Assembly (NCBI GenBank): GCA_903862805.1
Contig: CAIOZP010000211.1
Coordinates: 1 to 10,769, forward strand
Source: an uncultured Fibrobacterota bacterium
GTDB lineage: Bacteria; Fibrobacterota; Chitinivibrionia; Chitinivibrionales; CAIOZP01
Direction of reading: 5' to 3'
Length of the DNA stretch: 10,769 nt
Within the stretch, counting starts at the first letter, position 1; each line of letters starts with the position of its first letter. Shown here in pieces: positions 227-10,769 of this stretch. The position numbers and the translations under genes are program-made. The notes below the pieces were generated by a model. The model worked only from the letters and a program-made list of their open reading frames with translations, had not been told where the DNA came from and made no database searches.

Positions 227-1768
227 TTAAACAAATTTCTCAGTACTTGGCTCTCCAGAATCGCCTTCATAAATCTCGAATTCATCGGCATCGAAGTCGT
301 CGTTGTCAACTATTTCGAGCTGGAAACCGTGGGCCTTGCGCAATCCTTCGAGCATGAATTCCTTGTCTTTGAAAAGGTGCTCGGCAACCGCAGGCGCGAC
401 AACGATGCGAAGGAATCCCTTCATGCCGTTTGATGCGGCGCGACCGAGCCAGCGGTCGATGCGGGCTGTGACGGTTCCGGGCGAGAAGATGCGGCCGACT
501 CCGCTGCACGATGGACAAACGTCGGTGAAAAGTTCCTGAAGTTCGGGGCGAACGCGCTTGCGGGTCATTTCCATCAGACCGTATTTCGAGATCGGCGCCA
601 TCGAGGTTGTGGTGTTGTCTTTTTCGAGCAGCTTGCCCATTTCCTGTTCGATGTGGCGACGATGCCCCATTTCCTTCATGTCGATAAAGTCAACCACGAT
701 GATCCCGCCGATGTCGCGCAAACGCAACTGACGCGCTATTTCGTAAACAGCATCGAGGTTGGTTTTGTATATCGTGTCTTCGAGATTTGTTTTGCCTACG
801 TTGCGACCGGTGTTTACGTCGATGGCGAGCAGTGCCTCGGCGTGATCGAACAGCAGATAGCCGCCGCTTTTGAGCCATACCTTGCGGCGCAAAGATTTTT
901 CGATGTCGCGATCGATGTTGAACCTGTCGAACAGCCTGCCTTCGCCGTTGTAAAGTTTCACGCGCGTTGCCAAATGCGGCGACACGGCTTTCACATAGTT
1001 GACGATGTCGCGGTGATCTTCCTGCGTGTCAACTAAAACCTCGCTGACGTCGTTGGAAAACAAATCGCGGATGACGCGCACCGTAATGCCGCTTTCCTGA
1101 AAGATCAGACGTGGGCCGGTGCCTTCGAGCGCCTCGTTGACCGCGAGTTTCCACTTCTCGATAAGGCTTTTCAGCTCGGCGACGAAGTCTTCTTCCTTTA
1201 CATCGAGTCCGATGGTGCGGACGATTACGCCAACGCCTTCGGGCTTGAACTGCGAAATGATTTTCTTGATGCGTTTGCGCTGGGCCGGATCGCCAAGCTT
1301 CTTGGAAACACCGATCGTATTGCTGTCGGGAACAAGCACTAAAAAGCGTCCGGCAATAGAGATTTGGGTGGTGATTTTCGGGCTTTTGTTGCCGATGGGT
1401 TCTTTCACGACCTGCACCAAAATGCTCTGCCCGACTTTAATAACCTTCTCGATGGGGATTCTTGGAATCCTGCGGCGACCGCGGCCGTTGCTGTCGTTGC
1501 CGCTGTCTTCGGAGCCGATCTCCGAGTCTTCGAGAAGAAGCGAAGGATCGACGTCGGCAGCGTGGAGAAAGCCGGTGCGGCCCATTCCCATGTCAACAAA
1601 CGCCGACTGGATTCCGGGGAGCAGCGATGTAACCTTGCCACGGTAGATATTGCCGAGGATTCGGTATTGGTCGGGGCGTTCAACCACGAGCTCGACCAGC
1701 TTGCCGTCTTCGACAAGGGCAGCGCGTTTCTCTGTGGAGGTCGCACTGAAGAGAATTTTTTTGTTCAT
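227..1768 (-). CDS. rng: Ribonuclease G/E family endoribonuclease
   Basis: This is a cytoplasmic single-strand-specific endoribonuclease that acts in rRNA maturation and mRNA decay. It has 513 aa, close to E. coli RNase G (489 aa), and lacks the long C-terminal degradosome scaffold of RNase E. An S1-like RNA-binding region starts near residue 37 (IYRGKV, LPGIQSAFVDMG, GFLHAADVD). It is interrupted at about 80-105 by an acidic then Arg-rich insertion. The catalytic metal-binding aspartates are D317 (IDVNTGR) and D360 (VVDFIDM). The zinc-link cysteines are C418 and C421 (CPSCSG). The spacings D317-D360 (43) and D360-C418 (58) equal those of E. coli RNase E D303, D346 and C404. The block APISKYGLMEMTRKR is intact. 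The ATG lies 11 nt after the sprA stop, with only a weak GGA ahead of it, so it is probably translated from the same transcript. RNase G is favoured over a short RNase E on length alone. Confidence 0.96.
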   Translation of the reverse strand: MNKKILFSATSTEKRAALVEDGKLVELVVERPDQYRILGNIYRGKVTSLLPGIQSAFVDMGMGRTGFLHAADVDPSLLLEDSEIGSEDSGNDSNGRGRRRIPRIPIEKVIKVGQSILVQVVKEPIGNKSPKITTQISIAGRFLVLVPDSNTIGVSKKLGDPAQRKRIKKIISQFKPEGVGVIVRTIGLDVKEEDFVAELKSLIEKWKLAVNEALEGTGPRLIFQESGITVRVIRDLFSNDVSEVLVDTQEDHRDIVNYVKAVSPHLATRVKLYNGEGRLFDRFNIDRDIEKSLRRKVWLKSGGYLLFDHAEALLAIDVNTGRNVGKTNLEDTIYKTNLDAVYEIARQLRLRDIGGIIVVDFIDMKEMGHRRHIEQEMGKLLEKDNTTTSMAPISKYGLMEMTRKRVRPELQELFTDVCPSCSGVGRIFSPGTVTARIDRWLGRAASNGMKGFLRIVVAPAVAEHLFKDKEFMLEGLRKAHGFQLEIVDNDDFDADEFEIYEGDSGEPSTEKFV

Positions 1769-1779
1769 GAAATTTCCGA

Positions 1780-4700
1780 TCAGAAACTGATTTTTACCGA
1801 TACCGTCACGTTGTTTGTCGTGGTCGTTCTGTCGGCCAACGCGGTATAGGTTTTCTTGTGGTCATATTCGGCGAGGCCGCTTATGTTGTCTGTGAAATTA
1901 TATGAAAGCGTCGGATGAATATCCAAATCTTTGTCGACAAGTTCATTTGTTGTAAGATTGCTGACCGTCCTGATGCGGTCAACCGCCACGTCGAGCTGCG
2001 TTTTCAGTTCGCCCTTGATCGGAATGGTCCAGCGCTTGAAAAGCGTCACAGAGCGGTCTTTTTTCGGCTTCACAGTGTATGCCACCGACATGATATTTCC
2101 AACCAGACGACTGCGCTTGAAGTTGTTCGTGGTAGAACCGGCCTTGATTGTATATGTTGTGTCCTTCTTGAAATGAAGGTTCCAGACAAGATCAATAGGA
2201 ATACGTTTGACCGTTCCCTTGAAACCGATAAGCGGGTTCAGGTCGGTTGTTCTGGTGCGATCGTCCTGAATCGCAGTGTCACCGTAGCGGGCGGTTTTGT
2301 GCGAGCTCAGGGTGAAATCGTAAAGCGAGTTCAGCTGAGCTGCTTTCAGCGCTTTCATCACAATCGGAATCTTTTCGAGAACGTTCGAGTTCGCCGCCAC
2401 CGAGATGTCGGGGAAGGTTACGGTCGTATCTATCGAACGATCCGGCGAAACCGTGTACTTGCGATCCCATTTCAGCGTAGGCGTAAGAGAAATGTTCAGC
2501 GGCGGCGGAATGCGGAACGGTGAAGATATGGAATAGTTCTGATCGGTGTTGCGCTTGTCGGAACTCCACAGAATCGCGTCGTAGGTTTTTGTCTTGGAGA
2601 ATTCCCTGTTGTAAACACCGCCGAAATCTTTGTGGTCATTCATATTGCCGGTGACAATGTCCTGCATGCTGCGATCTTTGAATCCCCACTGATACGCATA
2701 CCAACCGGCGGTTCCGACACCGCGGTCGTCGAGATAATTGGTGTAGATATAATCGTCGGTGAGATCGCAGGTGGCGCTGTATTCGAAGCGAATGCTGTTG
2801 AATCCGAATTTGTCGAAATTCTTGCCGACGGCATCAACCTTCTTGCTCGAAGGCGAAGCGGGTTTGGTAAGTCCGCCAATGTTTGTAACAAGCGATCTGA
2901 ACCGGATCTCTGCCACGCCCTTGAATGTCGAATGTACCCCGCTGGTGAGATATTCCTTGAGCGAATCGGTCGAAAGCGTGCGCGGTGTAAGGTCACTGGA
3001 GTTAGAATAGTCGGCGGTATGAACGAGCCAGTCAACAAACTGCGGGTCGCACTGAATTCCCAAGTGCTGCGACCGGCTTTTTTCGAAACTTGTTATGAAG
3101 TACCGGCCCCAAGTGGTGTCCATCTTCAAAACATTTCTGTCGGTGAAGCGTGACATTTTATCTGTGCCCTTTATCAGTCCGGAATCGGCGGCAAGCGGAG
3201 CGTCGAACACGCGGTTTAGACTGATGTCGTAATTGGTCTTGATCAACGGATCGAGTGGCGCCCATGCATATTGAAAGGCATGATTGACGGTCAGCTTGCG
3301 GGTTTTGGTTTCTATCATCTGAAGCGAACTGTAGTTGTAGAGGTTGGCGTATTCGGTTCCGCTGTTCAGCAAGTCGAAATTGAACCGCGAAGGAAAGGCA
3401 TTGAGCTTATACATCTTGAACGGCTTCGGCAGAAACTTCGACTTCGATTTACCAAATGGCGACAACGATGTCGGGAACGGCATCTTTCTCGGCGAAAGAT
3501 CGTAGTGGAATTCGAAATCGTATTTCCGGTCGGAATTTATGGTCAGGTTATTCTCGGCATCGCGCGGAAGGTCCAATCTTTTGAGCGAGTCAAGGAACGC
3601 CGTATCGGAGGACATTTTACCGTAATAGGTCGTTGACGTGTCGCGGGTATAGGTCGCCTTGGTGGTGATTCTGTCGGCGGTGAGGTTTGTTGCCGGACTC
3701 ACGCCGGTTCCGTTTTTACCATAGCTGATATAAGCCGAGGAACCGGTCGTTGTAGTCTGGTAGCGTTCAGCCGGAGTTGTTTCGTTTGTCGGCGGCTTTC
3801 GTAAAATCATGTCGGCGAAGTCGTTGCTCATGTTGCTCAGATTGTCGGACTGACCATTCTGCGCCAAAAGAATATCGGAACCCGGACGGTACTTAGGCCT
3901 TGTAAGCGAGGCCGTTGCCTGCGCACCAATAGGCAATGAAACGCCCCACTTCTGCGGAGTGAATTTCTGAAGATTAAGCTGTGACGACAATGATGCCGCG
4001 AGCTTGGCATCCTTTGTCATTCCCGGATCATCGGCCATCTGACGGAAATTAGCATCGTCAAAGCTTGCCGTAGCATCGGTGTTGAGAAGATCCGCCCAGC
4101 CGGATTTGAAATCGGCACGGAAAGCCCAGCCCGCATAAGATTCCAGCCCCCAAGCTTCTATTCCGTGAATCATCAGCGAACCGGTGTCGGATACATGTTC
4201 ACCGGTTTTCATATCAAGACCAACGGCCATCCACTGTATGTCGGAAAATGTCGGCTGTGTTGCGTAGGTGCTGTGAATACGGTAGGTTCCCTCGCTGAAC
4301 ACAGCGGTGGTATCAATCCTCGGCGGTTTTTCGCCGTGCCCGGCAAAGTAGCTGAGCTTCATCTTGGCGTAGTGCTCAAGAACAATCCTGACACCTTCGC
4401 GTGTCTGCCATGTCAGCTCATCGACAACGTGGGTCGGACGGAATTCGTAGTAGCAACTGTCGTTGTTGCCGAAGCGGAAGAAGAAGGTCGAATCGGTCTG
4501 GGCAAAAGCTCCGAAAGTTTTAAGATGGAAGCGAAGTTCCTTTGAATTGGTGATGTTGATTTTCTGGTAGTTTAGATTCGATCCCATGTAACGGCTGACA
4601 TAGGCCGTGCCGGAATCGAGTCCGGCCCACTTCATCATGAGAGCATATTCCTTCTTAGGGGTCTTGCCGTCGGCGTCGTATTCCTGACGTTTTACAAGAT

Positions 4701-7700
4701 TCTCGAAAAGCTGGGAATTGTCTTTGCTGTTTACAACGGTGGTAACGACACTGCTGTTTTTGTCAACACCAACGCTTGGAGGCAGAATGGGATTCCACAT
4801 ACTTCCTTCGAAACGCATCTCGGCGAGGTCGATCGTATCACGACCAAGGCGACTGTCTTTGCTTCTTTCGCGCCACACAAGACGGACGTAACGAATATTG
4901 TTCCACGCAGGACTTCCAACGGTCGTATCAGGCCGCGCTATGTTTCGGGTAGTATCAGCGGCGGCTTGACTACCGATAGGAATCCGTATGAAATACCAAC
5001 CTTTGTTCAAAGAATCGGGAAGTGTATTACGATCAATCAGCGGGTTCGCTTGAAGCAGAACTTCTTTGCCGGTGTTCGGATCGACGTACTTTTTGTATGC
5101 TACGCCCATGGTTGACAGGTTAAGTTTATAACGATAAAAGCTTTCGGCCGTTGTAAAACCGTTGCCGCTGATGTCTTCGCTGCTCAGTTTCCCATCGTTT
5201 TCAAGTCCGTTACATTTCGACCGGTTCGAGATGTCACCGCTGCCATTGCCGTTGCCATATGGTGCCCAATCGTCGTCTGACGGGCCGCCCGATCTGCTGC
5301 GGTTGTAATAATCGTTGAGGTATGTGTTGCCGTAGCCAAGAGAATCCCAATACCCTGGATTTGCGCTGTCGGGTATCAGGTAGTATTCTTTGGAATCCGG
5401 CAGGGTATCAAGGCCGTGATCATATCGGCCGTCATATTCGCCATCCTGAACGGTGTTTTTCTCGCGGTCAAGATTCCCGTTCGGCGGGCCACCGTTCCAT
5501 GACACATCATTGCTGACCTGGCCAAAATCGATATAAAGCTGGCCGAGATTCGTTGTGTCTCGTACCTTGATCCAGAATGTAAAAAACTTGTCGCCGTCAC
5601 GATTGTTGAGTGTTCCGGGAAGCACCGTCATAATCGAAGCACACGGAAGGATTGTATCCATCATGGCCTTCCCGAATTCAGATCTGCGCCCGGATGTATC
5701 AACTCTGAACGGCTGATTCACCCAGCGCAAAGTCGGTTCGTTCTGATCGTTAGGATTCGCGGAAGAAGTGGAATCGAGCGCGTGCAGTTCGGCAAGCTTT
5801 ATCGGGTTGTCATTTGCAAGCGGCGAATACCAGAAGGTTTTCCACGACGGCGGATTCCAGTAATATCCGTCGGGATTGCCTGACGAGGCGATGTCAACGG
5901 GAATGGAACCGTGATACCAGCCATTCTGACTGACATCGAGGGAATACTCTTTGTTGGCCGACTGGAAATCTTCTATGTACGCTTCACGATTTTTGTCGGT
6001 GTTGTCGATTGTTTTGGGTTTTACAAGCGAGTATGCGCCTTCGACATCAAGGCTTGCAACAGATGCCGCACCACTTGAGACAAGGGGAAGAAAGTTCACC
6101 GCCTCGGTCATCCAGTCTGGGGCAAATTCGAGATGCAGATTCATGTCGTAAAGAAAGCGGTTGTAAGCCTCGCTGCCGATACGTGGAATCACCTTACGCT
6201 GCGCCTGCATGAACTCGCCCATGACCGTTGACGCAATAAAAGACGTTGGACTGATGCCTGGAAGATTGAGCCTTGCGTAGGCACCGAGGAAATCTTTTGA
6301 ATCGAACATCAGCATTGCATCGCTGGAATACTGCACACTGATCTTGCTGGTGGCCTGAGCTTTGGTCGAAATAAGATCGAGCTGTCCGCTCTCGTAGTCG
6401 ATGGAATAGTCCTTGTCTTTTACGAGGATCTCGCCGCCAGCATCTTTGACCGTTTCGGAACCGGCAGCTACTCCAAACCCGAGCTGGAACGAGTAATTAT
6501 GCGAAGATCCGCCGTTCATAATGATTTTGAACATCGGCGCAGGGCGGGTTGTGGAGTTTATTATCGAATCGTTGTAAATGTCGGGGTTTGTGTTAGTCGC
6601 CCCGTTGTACTTTCCCAAGTCGGTATTTGTAAAGGGCAGATTGCCTTTTGCTTTGTCGCCGTAGGGAGGCAATATCACAATCCCGTTTCCAAAGTCGAAG
6701 ATTTCAGGTTCGCCGGATTTGATTATTCCATCGGCTCCGGCAAGATTAAGCACTGTGGTGAATTTTTTATTTCCATCAGTGAGCTGCTGAATCGAACCAT
6801 CGGTCGTAATTCTTTGGACATCCATTGTAAATCCATCCGGCTTTACACCGCCCGGCATCGAATAGATATTTCGCCACATAAGCCAATAAGTGCGGTCATG
6901 GGGATTGGTTGAATATGATCCGTACTTGAGGCTGTATAGCGTCACATGACTTGTGGAATCGTTAGACCTAATCACCGTGGTATCGCCACGATGATGTGTC
7001 CCGTCGGAAAAGGCAGCGCCTTTCGGGTCGATTTTGTATGAAACCGCAAGGATACCATCGGCTCCGAGGTTCATTGAGTCAGTTAGAGTAATCCACCCGC
7101 GACCCGACGCATCGAGCACATAATCGATCCCGTCACGCAATCTCACGTATGTGAAATACCCACTGGTTTGGCTCAATATGTCATGATCGGTATTTGCATA
7201 ATACCATTGCTGGCCGGGTGTGACCGTTGGCACTTTTTTATAAACAAACAGCGATCCTTTCACAATCGTCGGGATCGACTTTGTCTGATCAAGATAATGC
7301 AACAGGAACAGACTATCGAGGAAGAAACGCTTGTCCCTCTTGAACTGGTCTTCGGTAGTGGGCATATCGTTACTTGAACCCGTTGTCGAAAAATCCTTAG
7401 TCTGATTCTGCGAATTTTCACGGCTGACAATCGTCGTTAGCGAAAGCGGGCCCCATTGTGATTTCACCCTTATGCCAAACAGTCCCTCGGCGCTGCCGCC
7501 ATAACCGGCAAGTCCCTGTCCGGGCATAGCAAAGTTTGTGTAGCCAGCGGTCACTTCCTGTATCACGTCGTCTTCGAGTTGGTCGGCAGAGTCGGGATCG
7601 GCCTTGTATTCGACCTTCATCTTCTTGAGCTGATCCTTGAAGCTCTCGCCGGAGGTTCCGTCCTTGCCGGTCTTGATTTCGATATTGATTAGACGACCGA

Positions 7701-8649
7701 TGCTGCCTTTGATCGTGAAACTGTTGTCGAAGTCGAAGTTCGGCCCCTGAACGCTGTGACTTGGCGCCACGCCGCCGCTGACAATATTTGTTCCGGTGAC
7801 CGAGAAACTGACTGACTGCCAACCCTTGATCGAAAGCTTGGGTGGTTCCTTGCCGAGAATTCTACGCGCCCATGCCGGATAGTTGACAGGAAGGGAAATC
7901 GCAAGCTCAGGAATGCCGGTTACAGCCTCTTTCTTTTTCGTTCCTTCCTTCTTGTGCGCCTTTGCCCAGAGTTTCTCCATGTTGAAGTGCTCCATGCTGC
8001 GCAGGTAGTCTTCGAGTTCGGCAAAGTGGCAAGTCCAGACCGGTATGCCTGTGACCTTGTCGTAACGCATGAACGTAACCTGACGTTTCTCGAAGTCGAT
8101 GATGGTTGTATCTGAAAGATTTTTCGGCTTCACTTCCGGAAGCGTTACATCGCCGGTTTTAAGAGGGCTTTCCGGAGCAGTGCTTTCGAAAAGCGGTTTG
8201 TATCCAGGCTCGGTAATAGCCTCGGTATTGATCCCGCGCATTCCTTTTGTGGTATCGGGTTTCGTTGGCGTTTTCTGTAGATCGTTTTTTGCGGACGAAG
8301 AGCTGTCTGTTGCAGGTATCGACGATGCCGCATTGACAGAAGATGAATCGGCCTTCGCGCTGTCGGCACCGACTGGTTTAACCGAAAGTACCGTCCCTCC
8401 GTTAAGCCCGGAAGAGGAATCGGCAGCAGGTTTCGTGCTGTCGGATGTGGTCGGTGCGCTTTGCTTTTTTGACGAAGTGTCGGCAGTTGACAAAGAAGGA
8501 ACCGTCTGCGTATCAGCTTTGGCGGTGCTGCTGTCGGCGGCGGCAATTGCTGCAAGAAGATTGTGCGAGAATCCCGATCCGGCAAGCCCCGCGCCGAGGG
8601 CGCTGAGAACCGATGTAACGATTATTGCCAAAGGTAGTCGTTTGATCAT
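1780..8649 (-). CDS. sprA: SprA/Sov-type T9SS outer-membrane translocon protein
   Basis: SprA forms the giant single-chain outer-membrane beta barrel (36 strands in the F. johnsoniae structure) through which T9SS cargo leaves the cell. This 2289-aa protein matches the usual size of roughly 2300-2500 aa. It begins with a signal peptide (KR at 3-4, hydrophobic to about 24, Ala-rich to about 38). A Ser/Asp/Thr/Lys linker follows at about 38-135. Residues about 180-230 resemble the SprA N-terminal region (TTIIDFEKRQ, GIPVW, LEDYLRSM). About 270-410 is a strong SprA block: LSIKGWQSVSFSVTG, SFTIKGSIGRLINIEI, DDVIQEVTAGYTNFAMPGQG, LFGIRVKSQWGPLSLTTIVS. Near 889 is YIEDFQSA followed by a Trp, like the SprA DDFEGS motif. 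Near 1160 a dockerin/EF-hand-like loop (ENDGKLSSEDISGNG) occurs. The C-terminal half is rich in Tyr, Thr and Asn alternations and ends in Phe, typical of barrels. The start ATG overlaps the upstream stop in ATGA. No frameshift is visible. Family assignment is from remembered motifs. Confidence 0.9.
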   Translation of the reverse strand: MIKRLPLAIIVTSVLSALGAGLAGSGFSHNLLAAIAAADSSTAKADTQTVPSLSTADTSSKKQSAPTTSDSTKPAADSSSGLNGGTVLSVKPVGADSAKADSSSVNAASSIPATDSSSSAKNDLQKTPTKPDTTKGMRGINTEAITEPGYKPLFESTAPESPLKTGDVTLPEVKPKNLSDTTIIDFEKRQVTFMRYDKVTGIPVWTCHFAELEDYLRSMEHFNMEKLWAKAHKKEGTKKKEAVTGIPELAISLPVNYPAWARRILGKEPPKLSIKGWQSVSFSVTGTNIVSGGVAPSHSVQGPNFDFDNSFTIKGSIGRLINIEIKTGKDGTSGESFKDQLKKMKVEYKADPDSADQLEDDVIQEVTAGYTNFAMPGQGLAGYGGSAEGLFGIRVKSQWGPLSLTTIVSRENSQNQTKDFSTTGSSNDMPTTEDQFKRDKRFFLDSLFLLHYLDQTKSIPTIVKGSLFVYKKVPTVTPGQQWYYANTDHDILSQTSGYFTYVRLRDGIDYVLDASGRGWITLTDSMNLGADGILAVSYKIDPKGAAFSDGTHHRGDTTVIRSNDSTSHVTLYSLKYGSYSTNPHDRTYWLMWRNIYSMPGGVKPDGFTMDVQRITTDGSIQQLTDGNKKFTTVLNLAGADGIIKSGEPEIFDFGNGIVILPPYGDKAKGNLPFTNTDLGKYNGATNTNPDIYNDSIINSTTRPAPMFKIIMNGGSSHNYSFQLGFGVAAGSETVKDAGGEILVKDKDYSIDYESGQLDLISTKAQATSKISVQYSSDAMLMFDSKDFLGAYARLNLPGISPTSFIASTVMGEFMQAQRKVIPRIGSEAYNRFLYDMNLHLEFAPDWMTEAVNFLPLVSSGAASVASLDVEGAYSLVKPKTIDNTDKNREAYIEDFQSANKEYSLDVSQNGWYHGSIPVDIASSGNPDGYYWNPPSWKTFWYSPLANDNPIKLAELHALDSTSSANPNDQNEPTLRWVNQPFRVDTSGRRSEFGKAMMDTILPCASIMTVLPGTLNNRDGDKFFTFWIKVRDTTNLGQLYIDFGQVSNDVSWNGGPPNGNLDREKNTVQDGEYDGRYDHGLDTLPDSKEYYLIPDSANPGYWDSLGYGNTYLNDYYNRSRSGGPSDDDWAPYGNGNGSGDISNRSKCNGLENDGKLSSEDISGNGFTTAESFYRYKLNLSTMGVAYKKYVDPNTGKEVLLQANPLIDRNTLPDSLNKGWYFIRIPIGSQAAADTTRNIARPDTTVGSPAWNNIRYVRLVWRERSKDSRLGRDTIDLAEMRFEGSMWNPILPPSVGVDKNSSVVTTVVNSKDNSQLFENLVKRQEYDADGKTPKKEYALMMKWAGLDSGTAYVSRYMGSNLNYQKINITNSKELRFHLKTFGAFAQTDSTFFFRFGNNDSCYYEFRPTHVVDELTWQTREGVRIVLEHYAKMKLSYFAGHGEKPPRIDTTAVFSEGTYRIHSTYATQPTFSDIQWMAVGLDMKTGEHVSDTGSLMIHGIEAWGLESYAGWAFRADFKSGWADLLNTDATASFDDANFRQMADDPGMTKDAKLAASLSSQLNLQKFTPQKWGVSLPIGAQATASLTRPKYRPGSDILLAQNGQSDNLSNMSNDFADMILRKPPTNETTPAERYQTTTTGSSAYISYGKNGTGVSPATNLTADRITTKATYTRDTSTTYYGKMSSDTAFLDSLKRLDLPRDAENNLTINSDRKYDFEFHYDLSPRKMPFPTSLSPFGKSKSKFLPKPFKMYKLNAFPSRFNFDLLNSGTEYANLYNYSSLQMIETKTRKLTVNHAFQYAWAPLDPLIKTNYDISLNRVFDAPLAADSGLIKGTDKMSRFTDRNVLKMDTTWGRYFITSFEKSRSQHLGIQCDPQFVDWLVHTADYSNSSDLTPRTLSTDSLKEYLTSGVHSTFKGVAEIRFRSLVTNIGGLTKPASPSSKKVDAVGKNFDKFGFNSIRFEYSATCDLTDDYIYTNYLDDRGVGTAGWYAYQWGFKDRSMQDIVTGNMNDHKDFGGVYNREFSKTKTYDAILWSSDKRNTDQNYSISSPFRIPPPLNISLTPTLKWDRKYTVSPDRSIDTTVTFPDISVAANSNVLEKIPIVMKALKAAQLNSLYDFTLSSHKTARYGDTAIQDDRTRTTDLNPLIGFKGTVKRIPIDLVWNLHFKKDTTYTIKAGSTTNNFKRSRLVGNIMSVAYTVKPKKDRSVTLFKRWTIPIKGELKTQLDVAVDRIRTVSNLTTNELVDKDLDIHPTLSYNFTDNISGLAEYDHKKTYTALADRTTTTNNVTVSVKISF
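8646..8649 (-). other. ATGA stop/start overlap joining SUMF1 gene and sprA
   Basis: The TGA of the SUMF1-domain gene and the ATG of sprA share bases (ATGA on the minus strand). The nearest Shine-Dalgarno-like AAGGA lies 12 nt ahead of the ATG, farther than usual, so re-initiation by the ribosome finishing the upstream gene is the likely mode. This ties the output of the two proteins together. Confidence 0.8.
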
Positions 8650-9854
8650 TGCGCAGTCGGATCCTTACAACAGCGAAACCCCACCGGATTGTGGCGGTTC
8701 TGCGGAAAATAACTGTAGCGCTCGTCAAAGCAGTCAGCCTGACCGGCGCTTTGCCAGAATCCGCCCATCACGTTGTAGAAATCACCATTGCCTTCCGAGT
8801 GCGTCGAGGTCCATTCGGAAAGATTGCCAGACATGTCGAATGCGCCGTACCAGCTGCGACACTCAGGCATCGCGCCGGATTTCAGGCGGGCAGTGTCGTG
8901 CGTTACGCAGATGCGTGGCTCGTATTTCGTTCCGTATGGATACCGCGATTTCGCCGGACCCGAACACGCGTCGCTCCATTCTTTAGTGGTGCAAAGCCGC
9001 TTGCCAGAAAGGAAGCAGGAATCGTTCGCCTGATAAAACGACACATTGGAAAACGGTTTCACGCCCTTGCGGTTCGGCCACTCGAAGCGATCAATGCAGA
9101 CTCCGCTTCCGGCATCGACAAAAATCATGTCGCCCGGGCAACGCTTCACGCTCTGATCAGCCTTGATTGTGTATGCGTCGAAACGCTCGTCCATTTTCTT
9201 ACCGCAAGAGTCGGTCGCGCGGAAAAACAAGGTGTCGGACTTGGTAATCGCCACGGCTTTGCCGGAGTAGTCGGCCCAGGCTCCGTGCGATAACCGGTAT
9301 TCAACGCGACAGATTTTATTTGCCGATAAGACAACCGACACCGCACCGTAGTGCAAGCCACCCGCCGGATCGGGAGTTACCCATGGCATCATCGTATCGG
9401 AAGCACATGGACTCTGCGCCGCTGCCGCCAGCGCTGCAGCAACAGCCGCGACACTGTCGGCTCTCAGTGAATCGACTTTTGCAGAATCTTTAATCGCCTG
9501 AGCCAAGATCGAATCGGCAACTTTTGCGGCTGAGATTTTTCCAGTATCTTCAGCGGATTTCAGGGATGATTTCACCGCAGTACTTTTACCTGATGCAGGG
9601 AGAATGCTGTCGGATCGGTTGACAGTGTCGGTATGCACAGACACGATATTTTTTTTGGCGGTATCGGACATGGAATCACTACGGTTTTCTTTTCCGCTTT
9701 GGTGCGTGCCGTGCCCGAAAAGTTTTTTGAAAGGATTGAGCGTGTCCGATGAAAACTGGTTCTGGCCGATCCATGCGACGATGCACAAAAGCAGAATCAC
9801 CGCGATAATTGCGGCATTCCGTTTTGTTCGCTTGTCTGCATTCCCTTTGCTCAG
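8646..9854 (-). CDS. Membrane-anchored FGE-sulfatase (SUMF1)-domain protein, possible T9SS partner
   Basis: Numbering here is from the GTG at 9800 (384 aa). The frame is open further upstream, and I place the start at a CTG (9854) that overlaps the folP stop. This adds 18 residues, including the basic leader KGNADKRTKRN, ahead of one membrane helix, so the rest would face the periplasm. Residues 40-130 form an Asp-Ser/Ala-rich linker with repeated ADS and VDS. Residues 138-212 resemble a chitobiase C-terminal-like beta domain (PDPAGGLHYGAVSVVLSA, IEYRLS-like CRVEYRLS, DTLFFRATDSCG). Residues 221-378 are the SUMF1 domain: DMIFVDAG, VCIDRFEW, GKRLCTTKEWSDACSG, YPYG, GAFDMSGNLSEWT, VGFRCC. Thirteen cysteines outside the helix suggest disulfides. 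The FGE catalytic cysteine pair is not clearly present (C357 only), so enzyme activity is doubtful. It is coupled to sprA by ATGA. GldK/PorK and GldJ of the T9SS share this fold, but this protein has no lipobox. Domain call sure; role inferred. Confidence 0.88.
   Translation of the reverse strand: MSKGNADKRTKRNAAIIAVILLLCIVAWIGQNQFSSDTLNPFKKLFGHGTHQSGKENRSDSMSDTAKKNIVSVHTDTVNRSDSILPASGKSTAVKSSLKSAEDTGKISAAKVADSILAQAIKDSAKVDSLRADSVAAVAAALAAAAQSPCASDTMMPWVTPDPAGGLHYGAVSVVLSANKICRVEYRLSHGAWADYSGKAVAITKSDTLFFRATDSCGKKMDERFDAYTIKADQSVKRCPGDMIFVDAGSGVCIDRFEWPNRKGVKPFSNVSFYQANDSCFLSGKRLCTTKEWSDACSGPAKSRYPYGTKYEPRICVTHDTARLKSGAMPECRSWYGAFDMSGNLSEWTSTHSEGNGDFYNVMGGFWQSAGQADCFDERYSYFPQNRHNPVGFRCCKDPTAQ
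9851..9854 (-). other. CTGA stop/start overlap joining folP and the SUMF1 gene
   Basis: On the minus strand the folP TGA sits inside CTGA. The CTG is in frame with the SUMF1-domain gene, and a purine run (gggggaag) precedes it by about 5 nt from the last of the five Gs. No ATG, GTG or TTG lies between this CTG and the GTG at 9800, and the nearest upstream in-frame stop (TAA) is only four codons before the CTG. The arrangement mirrors the ATGA overlap at the other end of the gene. Confidence 0.45.
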
Positions 9855-10684
9855 GGCTTCCCCCGTTTAATTGCCTCGGCGACCAAAAGTGCGTCACGTG
9901 TTTCCGCAACATCGTGAACCCTGAAAAACCGCACACCCGAAAAATACGCTGCTACCACGCTCGCAAGGCTTCCGGCAAGTCGGTTCTCCGCATTTCGTCC
10001 GGTAATCGTTCCGACAAAAGCCTTCCGCGAAGTTCCTAAAAGAACCGGAAAACCATCGGCAAGCAGTTCTGGCAGGCGATTCAAAATATCAATATTATCC
10101 TCGAAGCGCTTCGCAAACCCGATCCCCGGATCAAGGATGATACGCTCCTGCAAAACTCCGGCCGCAACAAAATCGGAAACAGCAGACGCAAGTTCTGACC
10201 GGACTTCGCTCATGCCGTCACAATAGTGCGGATCAATCTGCATATCCTGCGGAGTTCCGCGGCTGTGCTGAATCACTACATTACATCCGAGCGTTGCGAC
10301 GATCGCTTTCATATCAGGATCAAACCGCCCGCCGGAAACATCGTTTACGATATTTGCGCCAGCTTCAATCGCGGCTTTTGCCACTTCGGATTTTCGCGTG
10401 TCGATGCTGATGAGTGCGTCGCACGAAGCGCGGAGCTTTCGGATGACCGGAATAGTCCGGTCAATTTCTGTTTTCACATCTATTATGACAGAGTCCGGTC
10501 TCGTCGATTCCCCGCCGACATCAATTACGTCGGCTCCATCTGATGCGAGTTTTAATCCATGCGAAACGGCATCGTCAACAGAGAAGTGTTTTCCGCCGTC
10601 GAAGAAGGAATCGGGTGTAGTGTTTAGAATTCCCATGATAAGGAATGGCGAGGCGTTTAGTTTTTCTGAAATTGGATTTTTCAT
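9851..10684 (-). CDS. folP: Dihydropteroate synthase
   Basis: This enzyme condenses 6-hydroxymethyl-7,8-dihydropterin pyrophosphate with p-aminobenzoate to give dihydropteroate in folate synthesis. It is cytoplasmic, a TIM barrel and the sulfonamide target. From the ATG at 10684 it has 277 aa, the normal bacterial length. All signature blocks are present: MGILNTTPDSFFDGG (17-31), GGESTRPD (57-64), SIDTRK (93-98), NDVSGG (114-119), QHSRGTPQDMQ (139-149), DPGIGFAK (185-192), GTSRKAF (217-223) and RVHDV (255-259). Thr replaces the common Val in NVTPDSF, and Phe replaces Ser in SFSDGG. A GTG at 10720 would add 12 residues, but these are encoded by the intergenic repeat. The ATG puts the first motif about 16 residues in, as expected. 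No strong Shine-Dalgarno precedes it. It is the first gene of the operon inside this window. Confidence 0.97.
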   Translation of the reverse strand: MKNPISEKLNASPFLIMGILNTTPDSFFDGGKHFSVDDAVSHGLKLASDGADVIDVGGESTRPDSVIIDVKTEIDRTIPVIRKLRASCDALISIDTRKSEVAKAAIEAGANIVNDVSGGRFDPDMKAIVATLGCNVVIQHSRGTPQDMQIDPHYCDGMSEVRSELASAVSDFVAAGVLQERIILDPGIGFAKRFEDNIDILNRLPELLADGFPVLLGTSRKAFVGTITGRNAENRLAGSLASVVAAYFSGVRFFRVHDVAETRDALLVAEAIKRGKP

Positions 10685-10699
10685 AAGACAGGAAGGCAG

Positions 10700-10769
10700 A
10701 AGAAGGAAGGGGTTAGCCACCCCTTAGACCCGCTAAGGAAGATGTGACTATAAAACCCCGTCGCATTGC
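10700..10769 (-). repeat. Structured intergenic repeat, copy 2 (runs off window edge)
   Basis: The core at 10700-10748, read on the minus strand, matches 122-170 at 46 of 49 positions. The 7-bp hairpin is kept (10707-10713 with 10719-10725, same ggcta loop), with one pair changed from C-G to G-C on both sides. The alternative 5-bp stem is a perfect A-U version here (cctta/taagg). Beyond the core, gcaatgcgacgggg at the window edge loosely matches gcgaagcgtggggg of copy 1. The element faces folP and ends 15 nt before its ATG, so it would lie in the folP mRNA leader if the promoter is upstream, or end a transcript arriving from the right. It continues outside the window. Confidence 0.85.

Follow-up and report, generated by a model that had tools for sequence, protein, structure and literature searches.

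Two components of the Bacteroidota type IX secretion system (T9SS) are described as sharing the fold of the formylglycine-generating enzyme (FGE). PorK is reported to have an FGE-like fold without the two catalytic Cys, to carry a large insertion (InsH, R81–P230, ~150 residues) that builds a ring, and to dock PorN in its FGE groove, and GldJ likewise to have an FGE-like fold (PMC12421860; structures of the PorK system: PDB 9mzu, 9ots, 9myj). A 2016 survey detected the T9SS in Bacteroidetes only, and "Fibrobacter" does not occur in its main text (PMC4793230). Here we consider a 10,769-nucleotide stretch of DNA (the window; contig CAIOZP010000211.1, assembly GCA_903862805.1) from an uncultured Fibrobacterota bacterium, whose genome bin (G000; 3.13 Mb, 748 contigs) is 83% complete. 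Next to the gene for the outer-membrane translocon SprA, the window holds a gene for an FGE/SUMF1-fold protein (the SUMF1 protein), which a first-pass annotation had proposed as a GldK/PorK- or GldJ-like T9SS component. We favor, at a probability of about 0.6, a different reading: a phylum-typical, bitopic, inner-membrane-anchored and non-catalytic FGE-fold docking protein of the envelope, whose gene became part of the sprA operon in a single order. The domains and membrane helix, the loss of the first catalytic Cys, the wide presence in the phylum, and the tight packing behind folP or folP-cdaA in separate lineages are observed or strongly predicted.

Architecture and distribution of the SUMF1 protein

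The architecture was taken from an AlphaFold2 model, and helix and lipobox statistics from 108 aligned sequences of the family (simple regular expression, hydropathy). The gene and the parts of its product are as follows.

8646..9854, minus strand: FGE/SUMF1-fold gene; 402 codons plus stop from CTG 9854, or 384 residues from GTG 9800
9759..9827, minus strand: membrane helix, residues 10–32 (helix 10–32 in the model), after a K/R-rich N-terminus; N-in, C-out orientation predicted
9411..9752, minus strand: Ser/Ala/Lys/Asp-rich linker, residues 35–148; in the model 35–108 are disordered and two short helices lie at 110–145
9159..9407, minus strand: Ig-like beta domain, residues ~150–232; motif C..DTxxPWVYPDPSGGLH (alignment), strands in the model
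8649..9143, minus strand: FGE-fold domain, residues 238–402; Cys-rich, with Ser369 where a catalytic FGE has its first active-site Cys

Most of what had been read from this gene at first pass stands. Its product contains an FGE-sulfatase/SUMF1 domain (Pfam FGE-sulfatase, 51.1 bits against a cut-off of 23.3), and a membrane helix does take the place of a lipid anchor, with a hydrophobic segment in 103/108 aligned sequences and a lipobox-like motif in 0/108. The model likewise confirms the linker and the extra beta domain, though the linker, described earlier as Asp-Ser, is in fact richer in Ser and Ala (S20, A20, K12, and D10 of 114 residues). The Ig-like domain matches the OmpL47 profile weakly (18.8 bits, cut-off 40) and PKD-like folds weakly in Foldseek.

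The FGE-fold domain is apparently non-catalytic, as judged from its residues. It comprises ~165 residues and lacks the N-terminal part of the FGE domain, the Pfam match covering profile positions 88–254 of 255. A catalytic FGE requires the two copper-binding Cys of the RGGxxxC....C motif; at the position of the first, Ser occurs in 99/108 aligned family members and Cys in 0/108, so this is not a typical catalytic FGE. In structure comparison the fold lies no nearer to PorK than to FGEs, which speaks against kinship with GldK/PorK. The window's own protein (384 residues) heads the homologue list, and the next homologues listed are 41–57% identical over the aligned parts. Searching by title or abstract start, with subscription journals largely uncovered, we found no paper describing an architecture of helix, linker, Ig-like domain, and FGE-fold domain.

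From these parts a simple arrangement can be proposed. The short charged N-terminus would stay in the cytoplasm, one helix would cross the inner membrane, and the flexible linker would extend into the periplasm both the Ig-like domain and the FGE-fold domain, which is Cys-rich and probably contains disulphide bonds; there the groove of the inactive FGE fold would most likely bind another protein. Because its gene is joined to sprA-rng in the window's order, the protein may contribute there to positioning or retaining SprA or its partners; elsewhere the gene sits beside cdaA, which argues for an envelope role independent of the sprA link.

The family is widespread in a sample of 150 Fibrobacterota genomes (100 for the GldL, GldN, and YbbR searches below). 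Matches at E<=1e-15 occur in 143/150 genomes, five of which are no better than paralogs, leaving ~138 genomes with a clear ortholog; SprA matches in 150/150 at E<=0.001, 144 of them over the cut-off. Three homologue searches returned 276, 520, and 428 proteins at E<=1e-3, and among the best 120 listed for each, all those with a named organism (a minority) were from Fibrobacterota. For the protein of G001 (family f8), close homologues are 71–98% identical, and those with an organism name, among the matches listed, belong to Fibrobacter sp.

Several points weigh against the docking-protein reading. Phylum specificity is not proven, since other phyla could appear beyond the best 120 homologues. 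Two near-complete genomes, G022 (98%) and G091 (90%), have SprA with no SUMF1 match at 1e-15, so both SprA and the envelope may be able to do without the protein. Topology, disulphides, docking function, expression, and co-expression are inferred, and localization is predicted. Housekeeping genes such as ftsH, folP, and rng can stay in one string although they share no function. The start codon is also uncertain: the frame is open throughout its 402 codons plus stop, no ATG, GTG, or TTG lies upstream of GTG 9800, and GTG 9800 sits within the membrane helix. Because relatives encode a similar charged N-terminus before the helix in the alignment, a start at CTG 9854, or a frame affected by assembly error, seems likelier than GTG 9800.

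A related FGE domain occurs in longer proteins. Lipoprotein-like proteins of the same phylum, with PKD repeats and a C-terminal Cys-rich FGE-fold domain, are encoded at L165 3350–6181, L166 1455–3776, L167 984–3794, and, in the window's own genome, L011. Those of L165 and L167 are 936–943 residues long with an FGE domain very similar to that of the SUMF1 family; a profile of the family alignment (A1) scores the FGE-fold domains at 157.5 bits (L165), 147.7 (L167), and 138.7 (L011). Pfam, run on these three, matched FecR in L167. The short L165 and L167 loci gave no folP or sprA match, and a downstream frame of 533–562 residues in L166 and L167 looks by eye like lnt.

Gene order near sprA

The window holds four genes, all on the minus strand. 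Besides the SUMF1 gene, the features are as follows.

9851..10720, minus strand: folP, dihydropteroate synthase (TIGR01496, 311.6 bits)
9851..9854, minus strand: CTGA overlap of the folP stop and the SUMF1 CTG start, read from the sequence
8646..8649, minus strand: ATGA overlap of the SUMF1 stop TGA (8648–8646) and the sprA ATG, read from the sequence
1780..8649, minus strand: sprA, outer-membrane translocon of type IX secretion, 2289 residues (TIGR04189, 359.5 bits, cut-off 200; PF14349, 44.1 bits)
227..1768, minus strand: rng, Rne/Rng family ribonuclease (ribonuclease G/E; TIGR00757, 466.5 bits)

Both the ATGA join to sprA and the presence of a SprA outside Bacteroidota, here in a Fibrobacterota genome, were thus correctly called at first pass. 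The exact overlap is rare, found (by nearest start codon) in one of 27 GTDB loci with sprA (L056), and a 4-nt SUMF1/sprA overlap also occurs in L119; the gap is −17 to +28 nt in 25/27 of these loci and +116 and +295 in the remaining two. The window's SprA has a signal-peptide-like start and then a Ser/Ala/Asp/Thr-rich low-complexity region (residues ~35–137), resembling the SUMF1 linker in make-up, with the first homology to other SprA at ~residue 138.

In the window's order the pair is the rule. Among 29 GTDB loci found with alignment A1 (L053 and L062 come from one bin, and the set overlaps with the 40 genomes below), sprA directly follows the SUMF1 gene in 27, with L049 cut at a contig end and L072 non-adjacent, and folP precedes it in 25 (L050, L060, and L062 start at or near a contig end). 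Adjacency holds in 34/40 genomes of the order (G000 included) from 19 genera, i.e., 29/30 loci (L077–L106), G005, and, from coordinates, G015, G017, G067, and G077. Of the exceptions, G065 breaks off at the end of a contig, the two genes are non-adjacent in G003 and G041, and G051, G053, and G075 have no clear ortholog. Two SUMF1-sprA pairs occur in a single bin (L053 and L062; G061:C95 and G061:C37), in which the pair may have been duplicated or which may itself be a mixture.

Outside the order we did not see the pair. When the places of SprA and SUMF1 were compared by eye in 46 genomes of other families, none had them adjacent: the two are either on separate contigs or widely spaced, with ~8 kb between them and opposite strands in the closest case (G108, L114). 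The SUMF1 gene there sits behind folP-cdaA or apart from folP, cdaA, and sprA: family f8 has folP-cdaA-SUMF1 on one strand in 20/20 loci (L142–L161, by best DAC matches), and G002 of family f9 has the same. In two f8 genomes a protein of ~625–630 residues (MELTK.QERRL...) is encoded directly upstream of sprA (L122 3785–5677, L123 13121–14998). The first-pass expectation of a pair conserved beside sprA thus holds within one order and not beyond it. Since each block is found alone elsewhere—sprA-rng without an adjacent SUMF1 gene in L114, L124, and L126, and folP-cdaA-SUMF1 without sprA in L107, L109, L110, and L116—two older blocks, folP-(cdaA)-SUMF1 and sprA-rng, appear from gene order to have come together in the order of the window. 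The link to SprA is real as gene order in this one order; a structural role beside SprA would extrapolate from the gene order of a single clade, the pair not being seen outside it.

This history lends weight to the strongest rival, for which we see nearly even odds, namely that folP, SUMF1, sprA, and rng stand together by descent as an ordinary string of housekeeping genes, SUMF1 and SprA being functionally unconnected. The separate blocks are what it would predict, and ftsH and folP are functionally unrelated; on the other side, the joined arrangement has lasted, mostly as near-contiguous frames, while the SUMF1 proteins diverged to ~37–47% identity to that of the window.

A SprA-specific partnership is plausible from the same gene order, but its strongest form, in which the protein is a T9SS component standing in for the GldK/PorK ring or for a GldL/M anchor and tying the inner membrane to SprA, we regard as doubtful. 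It draws on the pair in 34/40 genomes with its mostly short gaps, on an inactive FGE fold like that of PorK (PMC12421860), and on the seeming absence of the rest of the machine. GldK exceeds its cut-off in 0/150 genomes; 149/150 have a match at E<=0.001, reaching at most 108 bits (G082), and the matches listed fall within profile positions 195–407, the generic FGE part. GldM was found in 0/150 genomes, GldN in 0/100, and GldL over cut-off in 0/100 (three weak matches), all with profiles that matched no control genome; because no control genome carried these proteins, their absence is not proven. SprA is present in 150/150 genomes with no GldK over cut-off and no recognized GldL, GldM, or GldN. 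Against a dedicated component stand the lack of adjacency in all 46 compared genomes outside the order, the equally tight packing behind cdaA in family f8, a GldK score of 17 of 350 bits with no lipid anchor, SprA without a detected ortholog in G022 and G091, and the separated genes of G003 and G041 within the order. An extended reading seems improbable: Fibrobacterota would run SprA without a GldKLMN motor-ring, and the SUMF1 protein would replace it by coupling the inner membrane to the translocon, so that the inactive FGE fold would have been recruited a second time, independently, for a type IX system of different construction. Weak matches to the PorV profile in Fibrobacterota (e.g., L178–L180) often fall in frames of ~740–900 residues, as against 243 profile positions.

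The cdaA association and the catalytic alternative

The second neighborhood raises another rival, which we consider unlikely: that the SUMF1 protein serves CdaA, the diadenylate cyclase, as its partner or sensor in the envelope and occupies the operon position of CdaR/YbbR. In other bacteria CdaR/YbbR, the partner of CdaA, holds the position beside cdaA; it has a single N-terminal helix and extracytoplasmic beta domains. The f8 loci and that of G002 (family f9), with all three genes packed on one strand, fit this idea, as does a topology matching that of a membrane-anchored extracytoplasmic regulator. Yet no cdaA match lies between folP and SUMF1 at loci of the window's order, and the diadenylate cyclase (DAC) domain, present in 125/150 genomes, is found in none of the 15 genomes of families f10–f13, 12 of which have a clear SUMF1 match. 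YbbR, moreover, exists elsewhere (23/100 genomes), as a separate protein in some f8 genomes, and the window protein has no YbbR (PF07949) match at E<=1. As f10–f13 keep SUMF1 without a detected DAC and YbbR exists elsewhere, SUMF1 does not simply stand in for CdaR. In some genomes of the window's order (G075:C510, G023:C173, G057:C320, and others), DAC and YbbR share one open frame of ~480–500 residues, i.e., the cyclase is fused to its usual partner, which also speaks against such a role for SUMF1.

A true periplasmic catalytic FGE or sulfoxide-synthase-like enzyme is highly improbable, for although Pfam FGE-sulfatase is matched above cut-off and EgtB and SenA profiles weakly, the first copper-ligand Cys is missing in 108/108 sequences, the domain is short and lacks its N-terminal part, and EgtB scores 20 bits against a cut-off of 360.

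Significance and comparison with described systems

For Fibrobacterota, a phylum of cellulose and chitin degraders, these results raise the question of how SprA is energized and held. The SUMF1 protein is a concrete and widespread candidate for an envelope partner; close orthologs exist in Fibrobacter, some members of which have been cultured. With one and the same gene lying tight against cdaA in one lineage and against sprA in another, its history warns against inferring function from the operon of a single clade.

Membership in the GldK/PorK or GldJ families, to which the candidate was likened at first pass, was not borne out by the profile searches. The window protein was rejected as GldK/PorK (TIGR03525; 17.1 bits against a cut-off of 350, best stretch 18 residues) and as GldJ (TIGR03524; no match at E 0.1), although among the 108 aligned family members 89 match TIGR03525 at E<=0.1 (best 3.8e-6) and six match TIGR03524 (best 0.0026). 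A GldK/PorK-type outer-membrane lipoprotein was rejected on the missing lipobox-like motif, and a domain of ~165 residues, of which 161 align within PorK residues 46–476, leaves no room for a PorK-type InsH. G000 has 13 GldK-profile matches at E<=0.001, the best (83.6 bits) being a different FGE-like protein, L001, which also matches PorK at ~70 bits, compared with 19–20 bits for PorK scored with the profile of the window family. Since at least this one other protein of the genome stands much nearer to GldK and PorK, and given the 17 of 350 bits, kinship of the SUMF1 protein with GldK/PorK is unsupported. A separate GldK elsewhere in the genome, named at first pass as a refuting outcome, was not recognized, none of the 150 genomes having a match over cut-off.

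How the protein compares with described systems can be stated feature by feature. Unlike FGE, SUMF1, and SUMF2, it has Ser for the first copper-ligand Cys and lacks the N-terminal FGE part, and it adds an Ig-like domain and a membrane helix. It resembles CdaR/YbbR in its single N-terminal helix with extracytoplasmic beta domains and, in family f8, its place beside cdaA, but has no YbbR domain and is kept in families without detected DAC. With GldJ it shares an FGE-like fold (PMC12421860), although TIGR03524 leaves the window protein unmatched. Its gene neighbors are folP, sprA, and rng, not gldL/M/N as for GldK/PorK. PorK offers a parallel: both have an FGE fold that lacks the two catalytic Cys, and both are envelope proteins of SprA-bearing bacteria, yet PorK has a lipid anchor where the window protein has a membrane helix, and only PorK carries InsH. 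The SUMF1 protein is thus not a member of the GldK/PorK/GldJ family, and resembles PorK only in that its inactive FGE fold probably serves for docking.
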